Source: Bdellovibrionia bacterium
GTDB lineage: Bacteria; Bdellovibrionota; Bdellovibrionia; Bdellovibrionales; JAGQZY01
Direction of reading: 5' to 3'
Length of the DNA stretch: 64,000 bases
Assembly: GCA_030424715.1 (NCBI GenBank)
Contig: JAUHWH010000001.1
Location: forward strand, 744,001 to 808,000
Position 1 is the stretch's first letter. Each line of letters begins with the position of its first letter. Below are positions 9,365-14,269 of the stretch, piece by piece. The notes beneath the pieces were generated by a model. It made no database searches, had not been told where the DNA came from, and saw only the letters and a program-made list of their open reading frames with translations. The translations under genes and the position numbers were made by a program.

Positions 9365-9514
9365 ACCTGGATCCTTTTAAGGTGGTGACGTTGGGTTAGA
9401 CATCGGCTGCTGAGATGATGGTTTTATAAAACAAGCGACATTCTTAAAACACTGAAATCACTTGATTTTTATTAGCAAAGGGGACCACTGATTCTTTGCA
9501 CTGGACAGCAAACC

Positions 9515-9528
9515 CGCACGCCTGGAAC
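9515..9528 (+). repeat. Att-like copy of the tRNA-Ser anticodon arm, left side of island
   Basis: CGCACGCCTGGAAC is identical to 11687-11700 in tRNA-Ser (anticodon stem 5' side plus the whole 7-nt loop CTGGAAC). Similarity stops on both sides. The right border copy (14198) begins exactly at CTGGAAC, so the loop is the only part shared by all three copies, as expected for a tyrosine-recombinase crossover core. A chance match cannot be excluded. Confidence 0.5.
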
Positions 9529-9639
9529 TCCCTTGATAGGGACTCTACTAAAGTCGTAAGTAAATATTTTTTTATAATTTTAATAACATAGATGTGGCTC
9601 CTCTCTTGGTTGTTCAAGGGTTTTAATAGTTCTTAAGGG

Positions 9640-9664
9640 GTGTCATATTTCACAAATGTGACAC
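9640..9664. promoter_or_regulatory. 11-bp inverted repeat upstream of secreted-protein gene
   Basis: GTGTCATATTT (9640-9650), CAC, AAATGTGACAC (9654-9664). The arms pair over 11 positions with one T-G wobble. It lies 53 bp before the first possible start of the next gene, with no T-run, which fits an operator for a dimeric regulator better than a terminator. It is not a clean Crp or Fnr site. Confidence 0.45.
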
Positions 9665-9716
9665 ATCAAGCGAGGGCTATCATAGACTTTCGCACAGTAG
9701 CTTATTGTGAAATCCA

Positions 9717-10835
9717 GTGAGAAAATTACTCATGGAAAAAGTAATAGTTTTTATAGCTTCAATCGTTTTATTACCATTTATATCATCTGCAGAAGCCACA
9801 AGGCCTGGTGCTGCCACAGCCCCTGATAGAGCTCAAACGACAGGTGTTTTTTCAAACCATCTTGGATGTATGAATCGAGTCTACCCCCCTATCGCAAGAA
9901 GACTTAATTTAGACATAGAGGAAGGAGGTACTCCAGAGACGGACACCTCTATTTTCTATGGTAGTAATTCTGGTACTGGAGGATTTTTTACAATACGACC
10001 TAACATGGCCACCTTTGATAATGTGCCTTTGTACTCTGGGGGCCAAGGTTTGCCAGGTTATCCATTATCTTACACCGATGGGAATGGCGGTGAGTATGTT
10101 TCACACTATTATGTTGAAGATGGAAGAGGTCGTTCATCAAGTCTCGGTTATCCTGCTGGTAATATGAAAGAAAACAATCCAGGAGTTCCATTCTATCCAC
10201 TTGGTGAGCGTCGAAGTCGAGTCGATAATTCGGTAGCAATTGGAGCGATTGCGAGTGAACTTGTCCCTGCAATAGAGGGAATGCCTAATTCTATAAACGA
10301 ATTTCTACGTTACCTACAAGAATCCCGAAGTTTGAGAGAAGGAGATAGGGAAAGGTATATTGGAAGAGCTAGGGAAGCGCTTTGCGTTTGTATGCAGACC
10401 AATGAGCCCTCAATCGTTCAAGCAGCTAGAGGCGCAGCAAATCAATTGAATATTAACGACGATGAGATGTTGGGCTGTCAGGAACCTCTCGTTTCCGAGT
10501 TTAACTTTTTTAACTATATCATGACTCATTTAGTTCCCCAGGCTCAAGCTAAACATGGAAAAAATAGAAGAGTAGCATCCAAAAAAGAAGCTAAATTCGA
10601 GATAAAGCCCTCCGACCCACCGTTATCTGTTCGTCTTATAAGAAAAAAAGATAAGATTCATTTGAAAGTCTGTGGAATGATTAGCCGTTCTATTTACGAT
10701 GTGAAATCACAGAGGTTAATATCGCAAAAAAAATCCTGTAGTAAAAAAGAAATGTCTACGGGAGGAAGAATTGCTAATCTTGAAAAATGGGTGGCTAGAA
10801 TTACAGACGATAAGATTATGATAAAATCTAAATAA
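9717..10835 (+). CDS. Secreted protein of unknown function (island)
   Basis: Not recognised. 372 aa from GTG at 9717, or 367 aa from ATG at 9732; neither has a strong ribosome site. The N-terminus is a signal peptide (basic residues, hydrophobic VIVFIASIVLLPFI, then SSAEA as a likely cleavage site). The mature part starts Gly/Pro/Ser-rich, has scattered cysteines (including CVCM and LGCQEP) and a Lys-rich C-terminal third (about 280-372). Codon choice is strongly AT-rich compared with genes before 9.4 kb, consistent with acquired DNA. A palindrome precedes it and recombinase debris follows. Confidence 0.6.
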   Translation: MRKLLMEKVIVFIASIVLLPFISSAEATRPGAATAPDRAQTTGVFSNHLGCMNRVYPPIARRLNLDIEEGGTPETDTSIFYGSNSGTGGFFTIRPNMATFDNVPLYSGGQGLPGYPLSYTDGNGGEYVSHYYVEDGRGRSSSLGYPAGNMKENNPGVPFYPLGERRSRVDNSVAIGAIASELVPAIEGMPNSINEFLRYLQESRSLREGDRERYIGRAREALCVCMQTNEPSIVQAARGAANQLNINDDEMLGCQEPLVSEFNFFNYIMTHLVPQAQAKHGKNRRVASKKEAKFEIKPSDPPLSVRLIRKKDKIHLKVCGMISRSIYDVKSQRLISQKKSCSKKEMSTGGRIANLEKWVARITDDKIMIKSK

Positions 10836-10878
10836 TATTTTTAGGTAAACATAATGGTCCTTTTGTTTAACAAGCCAT

Positions 10879-11160
10879 TCAATCGACCTTTTTAAGATAG
10901 ATGGCTTTCGATACCAGGCTAGACAATTCCCTCTGCTTATTCTCTATTGAGTCCACATAAATCTGAAGAGTCTCAAGCTTTGAGTGACAACTGAATTTCA
11001 GCACTTCTCTAAGGTTGATGTTATTTTTCTGAGCTTCATTGACAGCCACAGTTACGGAGCTATGGCGAAAACTATGAGGATGAATAGCAACATTGTTATC
11101 CTCTCCCAATTTCTTGATGATTTTATATATTCCATATCGAGTGATACGCTGGCTATCCGA
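10879..11160 (-). pseudogene. Tyrosine recombinase, C-terminal fragment (minus strand)
   Basis: The in-frame segment runs from 11160 to the stop at 10879, with a TGA immediately upstream. It shows the catalytic HSFRHS box, then SCHSKLETLQIYVDS, where CHS replaces the usual GHS and Y is the nucleophile position. About 93 residues remain; the SAM-like DNA-binding domain and the first catalytic Arg are missing, so it cannot act as a complete integrase. Its broken end abuts a second recombinase fragment in the opposite orientation. Confidence 0.72.
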
Positions 11161-11165
11161 TCAAG

Positions 11166-11572
11166 GGACCTATGATAGAAAAACAAGAAAGTTTAAAAAT
11201 CATCCCAAACGTGGCAAAAGGTTAAAAATGTATATCCCTGATGAACTTTTTAATATGCTTGGTGCTAAAACCAGAGTCTCTGATGAGGACTTTGTTGTTA
11301 AGTCACCACGGTCCAATTATTTGTCTTATGATGGGTATTACCGAGCTTTAAAACGCTATTGTCGAGAGCTTGGGATTACTAAAATTGGAACTCATGGATT
11401 GAGGCATTCAACATCAGAACTGTATACGAAGTTCGGTGCAAGTCGTGATGACCTCCGTATTTTATTTGGTCATTCTAATAGCAAAGTGACTGATATTTAC
11501 ATCCATGACAAAGGTCAAAGATTGGCTGCAGTAGCGGATAATATTAGTCTACTTGGATGCGCTGGTTCATAG
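11166..11572 (+). pseudogene. Tyrosine recombinase, C-terminal fragment (plus strand)
   Basis: Recombinase-like sequence begins at about 11166 (TYDRKTRKFKNHPKRGKRLK, the beta-hairpin with the catalytic Lys region) and runs to the stop at 11572. It has HGLRHS with the H-x-x-R box and LFGHSNSKVTDIYIH with the late His and Tyr nucleophile. The core-binding domain and first catalytic Arg are absent. The open frame extends left to 11093, but those residues read through the antisense of the other fragment. Its 3' end points at tRNA-Ser 90 bp away, the usual integrase/tRNA arrangement. Confidence 0.75.
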
Positions 11573-11587
11573 CTGTTTCTAGTTGAT

Positions 11588-11609
11588 ATGTTCCACAAAA
11601 TGTTCCACA
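11588..11609 (+). repeat. Two direct copies of ATGTTCCACA
   Basis: ATGTTCCACA at 11588-11597 and again at 11600-11609, a 12-bp period, between the recombinase relic and tRNA-Ser. Direct repeats of this size beside an att site could be integrase arm-binding sites (inference). Confidence 0.4.
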
Positions 11610-11661
11610 GTGACGATTTTGGAGGCTACTCAAGCCTCTAAGTATTTTAAATCATTATAGC

Positions 11662-11752
11662 GGAGAGGTGGCAGAGTGGTTGAATGCGCACGCCTGGAAC
11701 GCGTGTAGGCGTTAATAGCGTCTCGAGAGTTCGAATCTCTCTCTCTCCGCCA
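11662..11752 (+). tRNA. tRNA-Ser (anticodon GGA)
   Basis: 91 nt including an encoded CCA. Acceptor GGAGAGG (11662-11668) pairs with TCTCTCC (11742-11748), discriminator G, then CCA. Anticodon stem CACGC/GCGTG encloses the loop CTGGAAC with anticodon GGA (11696-11698). A long variable arm (about TAGGCGTTAATAGCGTCTC) marks it as class II serine. T stem GAGAG/CTCTC holds the loop TTCGAAT. It reads UCC and UCU codons. Its 3' half is duplicated at 14198, so it is the integration site of a mobile element. Confidence 0.96.
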
Positions 11753-11833
11753 GTCCTTTTTTCTTTAGTTATTCCAGACCTTTAAACAATAAAGAAAGCT
11801 TTGTGAGCCAGACGGTAAATAATTAAATTTTTT

Positions 11834-11867
11834 GCAACCTTTCACTAACTTGTTACAAGTACTCTAT
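11834..11867 (+). promoter_or_regulatory. Possible ECF-type promoter before the sigma gene
   Basis: GCAACCTTT (11834-11842) resembles the AAC-containing -35 boxes recognised by ECF sigma factors, and a plausible -10 zone lies at about 11857-11863, right before the ATG at 11868. This would suggest autoregulation and a very short leader. It is inference from one site: no second copy was seen before the other island genes. Confidence 0.35.
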
Positions 11868-12395
11868 ATGGGTGCATCTTTAGATTGGGACAACATAGTT
11901 GATAGTCTTGGGCCGAAGCTTTACCGTTATTTTGGTGCTCGGTTTGGTGATGCTATTGCTGATGACTTAACTCAAGAAACTCTGGTTCGTCTCGTTACCA
12001 AATTCAATCAAGGTGGCTTTGATGATTCTAAAGGTACTATTGAGATGTTTGCCTTTGGTATTGCTCGTTTTGTTCGTCTTGAAGAGTTAAAGCGATTTCC
12101 AAGTGCTCCGGTATTCGAAATTGATGATTCAAAAACTGCAGATTCAAGCTGCGCCATTGAGAATTTTGAATATGCCAGCGACATCTATTTACTAAGAAAG
12201 GGTGTTGCTTCTCTCTCTGAACCTGAACAAGAAATCATATTATTGATGGTGGATCATGAGTGGGGACTTCAAAAAATCTCTGAGCACATGGAAATGCCTC
12301 TTGGTACAGTAAAGAGTCATATTCACAGAGCCAAAAAGAATATTTCAAGTTTTATGAATGAAAAAGTGGGAGAGTCTTATGGACGACTTAGATAA
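11868..12395 (+). CDS. ECF-like RNA polymerase sigma factor (island)
   Basis: 175 aa from ATG at 11868; the upstream TTG at 11832 lies on the putative promoter box. Region 2 is seen in YFGARFGDAIADDLTQETLVRL (about 18-40), with the DDLTQET core typical of ECF factors. Region 4 is LSEPEQEIILL followed by the helix-turn-helix ISEHMEMPLGTVKSHIHRAKK (about 142-162). There is no region 1 or 3. It would direct polymerase to a small regulon, most simply its own operon. The next gene overlaps its 3' end by 17 bp and encodes a one-span membrane protein, matching the sigma/anti-sigma arrangement. It lies directly after tRNA-Ser inside the att-bounded segment. Confidence 0.87.
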   Translation: MGASLDWDNIVDSLGPKLYRYFGARFGDAIADDLTQETLVRLVTKFNQGGFDDSKGTIEMFAFGIARFVRLEELKRFPSAPVFEIDDSKTADSSCAIENFEYASDIYLLRKGVASLSEPEQEIILLMVDHEWGLQKISEHMEMPLGTVKSHIHRAKKNISSFMNEKVGESYGRLR

Positions 12396-12657
12396 ATTTT
12401 TAGAAAAATCTAGAGAAAAGAAGCCCTCAGAATTTCAAATGAAAAAATGGAAGAGCGCCGTTCAACAACAGAAAAAAGATAAATTATCAAAACGAAATAA
12501 CTCATCAAACGTCAGGTACTGGACTCAGATGACAGCTGCTGTACTGGTTGGCATTGTCGTGGGTGGACTTCTATTCGGGGATTTAGAGCAAGATGAAAAA
12601 AAACAAAAAATTGCATACGAAGATGCAACCATCGAGGTTGTTTACACCAAGTTGTAG
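12379..12657 (+). CDS. Putative single-span anti-sigma factor (island)
   Basis: 92 aa from ATG at 12379, preceded by GGGAGAG; an earlier in-frame ATG at 12358 has no such site. The charged N-terminal part (about residues 1-48) would be cytoplasmic. One transmembrane helix (MTAAVLVGIVVGGLLFG, near 51-67) follows, then about 22 periplasmic residues. No zinc-binding HxxxCxxC motif is present. Position and topology, not sequence similarity, suggest that it holds the preceding sigma factor at the membrane. The 17-bp overlap indicates translational coupling. Confidence 0.6.
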   Translation: MDDLDKFLEKSREKKPSEFQMKKWKSAVQQQKKDKLSKRNNSSNVRYWTQMTAAVLVGIVVGGLLFGDLEQDEKKQKIAYEDATIEVVYTKL

Positions 12658-12696
12658 TAAGAGCGCTCTGTTTAAATGTAAACAACAGGAGAAAAA

Positions 12697-13575
12697 ATGA
12701 AAACGATTCTAATTCTAACCGTTCTATTATTAGGCGCCCAAGCCTGGGCTGATTCTCGATCCAATGATTTTGGCAGCCATAGTGGGGAGGTCAAAAACTT
12801 AACTAATCAAAAATTAAGAGAGCAACTTGTAATAGAAGGTAATATATATGTTTTAAATGGATCGGGTGAAAAGCTCCTGTTCGAAGCCCGTGAAGAGCGA
12901 ACCTGGAAATTCGCCAAAGATGGTGATCTGCTAAGTCATTGGTCTTTTAAGGCAGATAAAGTCGAGCCAATTGCTCTAAAGCATCGATGGAAATTAGGAA
13001 ATGATGGACGACTTCATGTCGATATTAAACAGTATTCATCAATGGAGAAGGACCCTTCGGATAAAGACCCTAAAGTGGGTAAACTTGTTAAAGAAAAGAA
13101 ATTTGTTCTTTCGAATTTTGAGCCTATCACGTGGAAAGTACGTCAAACTAAAGAGGAAACAGTGGTGGTAAGACTAACTCCTCGTCTGATCAGAAAACAA
13201 GAAGCGCAACAGGTGGGGCGAATTCCAATTAGTGGAAAGAATATGATCATGGCTGATAACAAAGGTTTTGTTTGGACTCCAGATGCGACTTTTAGTGGTC
13301 AATTTGTATCATTGAAAACCAACCGAGGCACAGTTCACTTGAGTTACCAAAAATTTAGTGGCGCAAAAGAATTAGGAACCGCGAGTGAGAATAAAATGAG
13401 AGTAAACTTAGGTAAAAAACATTATCTAAACCTAATTAGCACAGCTCCACTTTTACCCCATGGTCTGGAGGCCAAAGTCTACGGTAAAGTTGATTTAAGC
13501 TCCAAGGCACAGCCTGGATCTACTCATATTATTTCAAGTGACCAAGAAAAAGAATTTCTATCATCAATAAAATAG
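12697..13575 (+). CDS. Secreted protein of unknown function in sigma-factor operon
   Basis: Not recognised. 292 aa from ATG with an AGGAG site 6 nt upstream. A clear signal peptide (MKTILILTVLLLGAQAWA) is cleaved near residue 18. The mature protein has no cysteines and no further membrane segment; its alternating hydrophobic/polar stretches suggest a beta-rich periplasmic or surface protein. It follows the anti-sigma candidate by 39 bp and precedes the repeat lipoprotein by 21 bp, so all four genes look cotranscribed. It may be a structural or signal-sensing partner of the repeat lipoprotein (inference). Confidence 0.6.
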   Translation: MKTILILTVLLLGAQAWADSRSNDFGSHSGEVKNLTNQKLREQLVIEGNIYVLNGSGEKLLFEAREERTWKFAKDGDLLSHWSFKADKVEPIALKHRWKLGNDGRLHVDIKQYSSMEKDPSDKDPKVGKLVKEKKFVLSNFEPITWKVRQTKEETVVVRLTPRLIRKQEAQQVGRIPISGKNMIMADNKGFVWTPDATFSGQFVSLKTNRGTVHLSYQKFSGAKELGTASENKMRVNLGKKHYLNLISTAPLLPHGLEAKVYGKVDLSSKAQPGSTHIISSDQEKEFLSSIK

Positions 13576-13596
13576 AACTTTTAATTACGGGGAAAA

Positions 13597-14028
13597 ATGC
13601 GTCATATATTTAGATTAATTTGTTTTTTTGTTGTTGGTTGTTCAATTGCTTCGAAGAAAAGCCCGACCCAATCTGAGCAAACAAACCTAAAGATTTCAAT
13701 AGAGAAAAAGCTGAGCAAAATTGTTGAAACTGCTACCGCTTGTTTTTCTTGTGAAGGCAGCACCAACCCTGGTGGGCCATGCTACTCGGGGCCCGGCGGA
13801 GCTATTTCAACGAGTCCCAGTGGAGCCTGTTATGGTGGACCCGGCGGTAATTTGTACGCCGGTCCTGGCGGTAATCTTTATTCTGGCCCTAGTGGAAATT
13901 GTCACTCAGGACCGGGCGGAAACTGTTACGCAGGTCCTGGTGGGAATTGTGCAAATGGCATCGAAAATGATGATTGCCCCAAAATTTGCGGTGTTTGTTC
14001 AATGAACCTTCTTAGAAAAAAGAAGTAA
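13597..14028 (+). CDS. Cys/Gly-rich GPGG-repeat lipoprotein (island)
   Basis: 143 aa. The N-terminus (MRHIFRLICFFVVGCS) has a lipobox-like VVGC, predicting a lipid-anchored Cys at residue 15. Residues about 46-118 are a tandem octapeptide array of the form G-P-G/S-G-N/A-C/L-Y-A/S, with about eight units; six or so carry Cys or Leu at the same place. Extra cysteines flank it (CFSC before; CPKICGVC near the C-terminus), about twelve in all. Regular Cys spacing suggests disulfide cross-linking or metal binding on the cell surface. Last gene of the sigma-factor operon; function unknown. Confidence 0.65.
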   Translation: MRHIFRLICFFVVGCSIASKKSPTQSEQTNLKISIEKKLSKIVETATACFSCEGSTNPGGPCYSGPGGAISTSPSGACYGGPGGNLYAGPGGNLYSGPSGNCHSGPGGNCYAGPGGNCANGIENDDCPKICGVCSMNLLRKKK

Positions 14029-14034
14029 TGTGAG

Positions 14035-14066
14035 TTTGGGAAACTTTTGGGAAACTTTTGGGAAAC
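14035..14066 (+). repeat. Three TTTGGGAAAC repeats on an 11-bp period
   Basis: Copies at 14035-14044, 14046-14055 and 14057-14066, each one helical turn apart, so all face the same side of the DNA. They lie just after the repeat lipoprotein and about 130 bp before the right border, consistent with integrase arm-type or regulatory protein sites (inference). Confidence 0.5.
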
Positions 14067-14197
14067 CACGAACCCAAAATGACCACCACTACCCGAAAAC
14101 AACCAAAAAGAAGAAACGTGGACAACCGATTAAAATTATTTAATTGATTAGAAAATTCGGGGGTTTATACGAGCCCTCGAAAACCGCCGGTTGTGGA

Positions 14198-14254
14198 CTG
14201 GAACGCGTGTAGGCGTTAATAGCGTCTCGAGAGTTCGACTCTCTTTCTCCGCCA
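14198..14254 (+). repeat. Right border: duplicated 3' half of tRNA-Ser
   Basis: 41 bp (14198-14238) are identical to 11694-11734 of tRNA-Ser, from the anticodon loop into the T loop. The remaining acceptor part (to GCCA, 14254) is also present but 2 nt shorter, so this copy could not complete a normal acceptor stem. This is the displaced original 3' end expected when an element integrates into a tRNA gene. Ordinary chromosomal sequence resumes right after it. Confidence 0.88.
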
Positions 14255-14269
14255 ATTCATTGGTTACCG

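Follow-up and report, generated by a model that had tools for sequence, protein, structure and literature searches.

A region of about 4.7 kb in the 64,000-nt stretch of DNA analysed here (the window), from a bacterium of the order Bdellovibrionales, running from about 9515 to 14254, is best explained as a decayed composite island in the tRNA-Ser(GGA) gene, made up of two elements with one on each side of the tRNA; we give this reading a probability of roughly 55 %. Both elements would have crossed over in the 7-nt anticodon loop CTGGAAC. Element A on the 5' side (about 9515–11694), with the integrase fragment int2 ending next to the tRNA, would have given the gene a new 5' half and upstream region and pushed the native promoter and 5' half out to about 9493–9528. 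Element B on the 3' side (11694–14198) would have given the new 3' half, brought in an ECF sigma operon and moved the native 3' half out to 14198–14254, leaving a working tRNA assembled entirely from element DNA. In the proposed order of events the integrases were lost afterwards, in element A by a deletion fusing two integrases head to head and in element B with none left, and this loss would have fixed the island in place.

Table 1. Features of the island and its ends (window coordinates)
Feature	Position	Strand	Basis
Probable -35 remnant of the native tRNA-Ser(GGA) promoter, TCTTTGCACTGGACAGCAA	9493..9511	+	PWM rank
Copy of tRNA-Ser nt 26-39, CGCACGCCTGGAAC; left end of island	9515..9528	+	exact match
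Predicted exported protein, 365 aa, no family, AT-rich, GC3 0.29	9738..10835	+	
int1, tyrosine integrase C-terminal fragment, pseudogene, open from 11109	10879..11160	-	PF00589
int2, tyrosine integrase C-terminal fragment, G075/G009 subfamily	11156..11572	+	PF00589
Direct repeat ATGTTCCACAAAATGTTCCACA, possible integrase arm-type sites	11587..11608	+	
Working tRNA-Ser(GGA)	11662..11752	+	ARAGORN, Rfam RF00005
Probable ECF promoter of sigma operon, TGCAACCTTT-N-ACAAG	11833..11862	+	motif in homologous operons
ECF sigma factor	11868..12395	+	TIGR02937, PF08281, PF04542
Probable anti-sigma factor, one transmembrane segment	12382..12657	+	position, sigma overlap, conserved in homologous operons
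Exported 292-aa protein, conserved third operon gene	12697..13575	+	signal peptide by eye
Exported 143-aa protein with GPGG repeats	13597..14028	+	not in homologous operons
Three tandem GGGAAACTTTT-type units, possible arm-type sites of right-hand element	14035..14066	+	
Displaced 3' half of tRNA-Ser(GGA), right end of island	14198..14254	+	95% over tRNA nt 33-91

The single tRNA that ARAGORN found in the window is this tRNA-Ser(GGA), and a search of the organism's own genome found no second tRNA-Ser(GGA) gene. The first-pass annotation had described a 41-bp duplication of its 3' half, and bases 11694–11734 do recur identically at 14198–14238. With up to three mismatches allowed, this sequence has two copies in the window and 0 are expected from 100 dinucleotide shuffles; a chance origin of the duplicated tRNA 3' part is excluded. 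The similarity runs on to the CCA end, 59 nt of the tRNA (11694–11752) matching 57 nt of the copy, and the copy has lost 2 nt of the T loop and carries one substitution, which makes it a pseudo-fragment rather than a working half. It starts at exactly the first base of the anticodon loop. Elsewhere in the 3.13 Mb genome, a match of comparable length was found in tRNA-Ser(TGA) only. Two Rfam matches, to sX4 (11651–11812, below its threshold) and to a plastid UTR, were merely the tRNA and were rejected.

Both sides of the tRNA are foreign in composition. Between the copies (11753–14197) the GC content is 0.396, compared with 0.480 (sd 0.014, minimum 0.447) in equal windows outside, and GC3 is 0.29–0.37 in island genes versus 0.47–0.56 in flanking genes, as the earlier description of AT-rich coding between the copies had it. 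The left side (9515–11661) is equally AT-rich, at 0.390 versus 0.480 (sd 0.014) outside, and holds integrase remnants, so that confinement of the island to the 2.5 kb right of the tRNA is not upheld. Together with the repeats at 11587–11608 and the tRNA-core and native-promoter remnant at 9493–9528, this composition and these remnants extend the island leftwards to about 9515, and the left boundary first proposed is probably wrong. An empty site would accordingly have its join within the anticodon loop, between about 9528 and about 14205, instead of linking 11752 to 14255. A search for such a site, made with DNA and with the MscS protein of the flank, found no close relative; no empty site was seen, which counts against the two-element explanation. 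No synteny was seen on either side of tRNA-Ser(GGA) in G001, the one other genome of the genus, or by tblastn of the window genes against the tRNA-Ser loci of relatives; all of these comparisons except that with G001 cross genera, and the genomes compared include many fragmented drafts.

The left end of the island is probably marked by a short remnant. The putative displaced 5' fragment at the far end comprises tRNA nt 26–39 only, that is, the 5' anticodon stem and the 7-nt loop, and stops exactly where the anticodon loop ends. With at most one mismatch allowed, this sequence occurs nowhere else in the 3.13 Mb genome apart from the tRNA itself, and shuffling gave P 0.003 for such a 14-nt match in the 2.3 kb region. 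A -35 position weight matrix (PWM) was built from the tRNA-Ser(GGA) upstream regions of five genomes (G001, G002, G004, G005 and G008); the adjoining stretch ranked 5th of 127,964 window positions with it, and the region upstream of the intact tRNA scored poorly. The exact motif ACTNGACAGCAA, as in G002 and G004, has one match in the window with 0.00 expected. Pairwise alignments of the left flank with the promoters of relatives taken singly were not significant (P about 0.1 each), and the significance of the promoter match comes from the combined profile and the exact motif only. This evidence, which is good, inconclusive and recognised post hoc, suggests that the native tRNA-Ser(GGA) began at about 9493–9528; about 65 bp of its 5' half, from the -10 box to tRNA nt 25, would have been deleted later. 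The unique 14-nt core adjoining a native-type promoter remnant, together with the displaced 3' half, argues for insertions on both sides. The shortness of the left remnant (14 nt and a -35-like stretch) counts against them, as does the tRNA sequence, which is too conserved in the order to separate native from imported.

The promoter also bears on the explanation first proposed, a single element at 11694–14254 whose left end is the intact native tRNA. The integrase debris on the left would then be either an unrelated older element or the element's own lost integrase. A plain tRNA with a displaced 3' fragment is the usual signature of such islands, found in 3760 of the 3919 islands in Islander (PMC4383910). 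However, the region upstream of the tRNA is without the native-type promoter seen at 9493, and the 5' end of the tRNA adjoins AT-rich DNA, int2 and repeats, precisely the arrangement of a related element in G075, making this explanation rather unlikely. What stands of it is the anatomy of an integrative element, with a displaced 3' fragment and foreign composition; the tRNA as an intact attL is not supported. The absence of a complete integrase between the copies was also borne out; two C-terminal integrase fragments are found a little beyond this interval, on the left side of the tRNA. Apart from the left boundary, the idea of an integrase-dependent island is supported.

These two fragments, int1 and int2, lie head to head with a junction at about 11155–11170, and both are without the N-terminal half. 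int2 is 34–40% identical to integrases of G075, G009 and G026 (metagenome-assembled genomes labelled Bdellovibrionales, Proteobacteria and Bdellovibrionales, respectively), and these were its only matches at E<=1e-8 among 119 genomes searched. The G075 integrase as query against 141 genomes of the order recovered the same set. None of the subfamily was found in viral contigs, and phages had only distant integrases, about 26% identical. The int2 subfamily is rare. The G075 integrase is intact and stops 108 bp short of tRNA-Ser(GGA), oriented like its counterpart in the window; HTH_17 excisionase-like and AAA_25 helicase-like genes precede it. ATGTTCC direct repeats lie between integrase and tRNA in both, as ATGTTCCACAAAATGTTCCACA in the window and ATGTTCCCTTTTATGTTCCCT in G075, and at no other surveyed tRNA-Ser(GGA) locus. 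The window has the G075 layout with a truncated integrase, int2 stopping just 5' of the tRNA with the repeats between, and this layout marks the tRNA as the point where a 5'-side element joins. The integrase fragments of G026 adjoin tRNA-Arg. The organism's own genome also carries an intact integrase directly after tRNA-Ser(GCT) (L061, G000:C15:668850-669368).

The right-hand end differs from this junction. The fragment at 14198 follows three GGGAAACTTTT-type units and is taken as the end of a 3'-side element with a different type of integrase. The repeat motifs at the two right-hand junctions differ, ATGTTCC at the tRNA and GGGAAAC at 14198, as two different integrases would lead one to expect; this favours two elements. 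A similar TGGAAACTTTTTGGAAACT lies 3' of tRNA-Ser(GGA) in the same-genus G001 and 3' of tRNA-Ser(GCT) in G047. Matching arm-like repeats at the left ends of elements A and B were not seen by eye, a point against the two-element explanation. In G001 (L024), TGGAAACTTTTTGGAAACT stands 53 bp after the tRNA, and DUF3800-like, phage Gp37-like and TcmP-like genes were recognised by eye downstream of it; another island may possibly lie 3' of the same tRNA there.

A single insertion would account for some of the same features. In this alternative, one 4.7 kb element carrying a complete rescue tRNA-Ser inserted once in the native anticodon loop, leaving the native halves at its ends. Consistent with it are the uniform composition on both sides of the tRNA and the arrangement in G009, where a displaced 5' half is followed about 140 bp on by a whole tRNA-Ser(GGA) gene of divergent sequence (77% identity with that of the window), with an int2-type integrase; the 3' half lies on another contig, and its acceptor strand CCTTTCC pairs with GGAAAGG of the 5' half. 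In the window, however, int2 and its repeats abut the tRNA in the junction-like manner of G075 rather than marking an end at 9515 or 14198, the tRNA and position 14198 have unlike repeat motifs, and the left and right native remnants are preserved very unequally. We consider a single insertion improbable on this basis. Under either the two-element or the one-element explanation the working tRNA-Ser(GGA) is imported DNA, and it is probably element-derived. Two elements remain the preferred explanation, for which the equal AT-richness of both sides and the integrase fragments directly 5' of the tRNA also argue. So do the nearest relatives of int2, found in G075 in the order excisionase, integrase, ATGTTCC repeats and tRNA-Ser(GGA), and in G009 beside a split tRNA-Ser(GGA).

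Repeated traces of insertion at tRNA-Ser(GGA) across the order are also in favour of insertions on both sides. In G009 the native gene is split into a 5' half (L036 8834–9101, G009:C33), which has the related integrase near it, and a 3' half at a contig end (L043/L059 1–254, G009:C95). AGGTGAAC repeats occur near both halves, and the element contains an AbiGi-like gene. A displaced 5' half was found in G018, an integrase-like ORF 150 bp 3' of the tRNA in G003, an integrase remnant 1 kb 5' of it in G060, and an exact 21-nt 3' fragment in G091. In G029 (L030 9757–9900) 19 nt of the tRNA-Ser 5' end are repeated 147 bp before the intact tRNA-Ser(GGA) starts, and a structured-looking non-coding stretch follows this repeated piece. 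An apparently split tRNA in G023 was an assembly gap of N and was discarded, and short tRNA matches in G008, G038, G044, G047 and G026 belonged to other tRNA-Ser(GCT) genes and were not fragments.

The sigma factor, anti-sigma factor and two exported-looking proteins previously described between the copies were confirmed as ORFs. A search for the 292-aa protein gave homologues in 12 further genomes of the order, or 13 of 141 with the organism's own; at the homologous loci the sigma gene stands beside the 292-aa gene, and most also have an anti-sigma-like gene. Judged from sequence, the three genes are a recurrent, conserved Bdellovibrionales ECF operon. The motif TGCAACYTTT-N-CAA was found upstream of the sigma gene in 10 of 13 operons (loci with the motif: L054, L055, L056, L134, L135, L137-L140) and once in the window, at 11833, suggesting that the operon probably switches itself on via its own ECF promoter. 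The GPGG-repeat gene is specific to the copy of the operon in the window, and its product also bears cysteines. Structure predictions made without an alignment were poor (pLDDT 48 for the 292-aa and 47 for the 143-aa protein). For the 365-aa protein left of the tRNA, no homologue was found in 140 other genomes of the order.

The distribution of this cargo is uneven. The operon is absent from G002, G003 and G004, the other three genomes of the organism's family, and from the same-genus G001; the cargo was not found in the genome-contig and viral-contig collections, nor island DNA in plasmids. The examined stretches of the homologous operon loci are without tRNA-Ser; the G006 operon has a tRNA-Ser(TGA) about 6 kb away, and one homologous locus adjoins tRNA-Glu/Lys. 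Cargo without a duplicated tRNA end, which by the first-pass annotation would refute the insertion, does occur in other genomes; it indicates that the operon also lives elsewhere and nothing more, and the insertion here is not refuted by it. The chromosomal position of the operon, away from tRNA-Ser, in other genera would also suit an origin without any mobile element, in which an ordinary chromosomal operon came to be flanked by a second tRNA 3' half through chance or a segmental duplication. Against this, the fragment starts exactly at the anticodon loop, integrase remnants are adjacent, the composition is foreign and the cargo is missing from the organism's own family, and such an origin is highly improbable.

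A single island of the kind first described would be nothing unusual. If elements were inserted on both sides, successive integrations can fully replace a single-copy, presumably essential tRNA gene and leave both native halves as scraps. tRNA-Ser(GGA) would then be an integration hot spot of the Bdellovibrionales, with a rare 5'-side integrase subfamily, and an ECF sigma operon would be moving as self-regulated cargo under a conserved promoter of its own. That the only tRNA-Ser(GGA) was replaced wholesale by mobile DNA, promoter included, and that this double-displacement route is recurrent in the Bdellovibrionales is put forward tentatively, at somewhat less than even odds.

Among known systems, the island represents, in well-preserved form, a type of genomic island already known, and it is larger than the first description had it. 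The anticodon loop is one standard site of tyrosine integrases in tRNA genes, used by 2083 of 3919 Islander islands; 5'-fragment displacement accounts for 159 of the 3919, and 125 are tandem (PMC4383910). With Islander class A, which uses the anticodon-loop site, the window shares an intact tRNA with a displaced 3' fragment from the anticodon loop, the order and orientation of the fragments (both +), foreign composition and a length above 2 kb. At 2.5 kb (or 4.7 kb) it falls within the Islander-style range of 2–200 kb, and the fragment extends to the CCA. It differs in having no complete integrase, for which Islander would reject it, and in the probable further 5'-side element; as only the int1 and int2 fragments are present and none lies within 11753–14197, it is called a decayed island rather than an Islander island proper. 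With the Islander 5'-fragment islands it shares a probable fragment of the tRNA 5' part at the left end and an integrase ending beside the tRNA 5' side, but the fragment is cut to nt 26–39, the integrase is broken and a 3'-fragment island is combined with it at the same gene.

Tycheposons of Prochlorococcus, as they are cited in PMC10872708, are tRNA-bordered tyrosine-recombinase elements with cargo, a likeness that concerns the single-insertion alternative only; in the window the recombinases are broken and the tRNA is internal rather than at the border, and membership is not claimed. The element on contig G075:C83 (JALZUS010000083.1, from the Bdellovibrionales metagenome-assembled genome) differs in its intact integrase and its excisionase-like HTH_17 and helicase-like AAA_25 genes, with the left end off the contig and no 3'-side element seen, but it shares with the window the same integrase subfamily, the same layout of integrase, repeat and tRNA, and the same tRNA.
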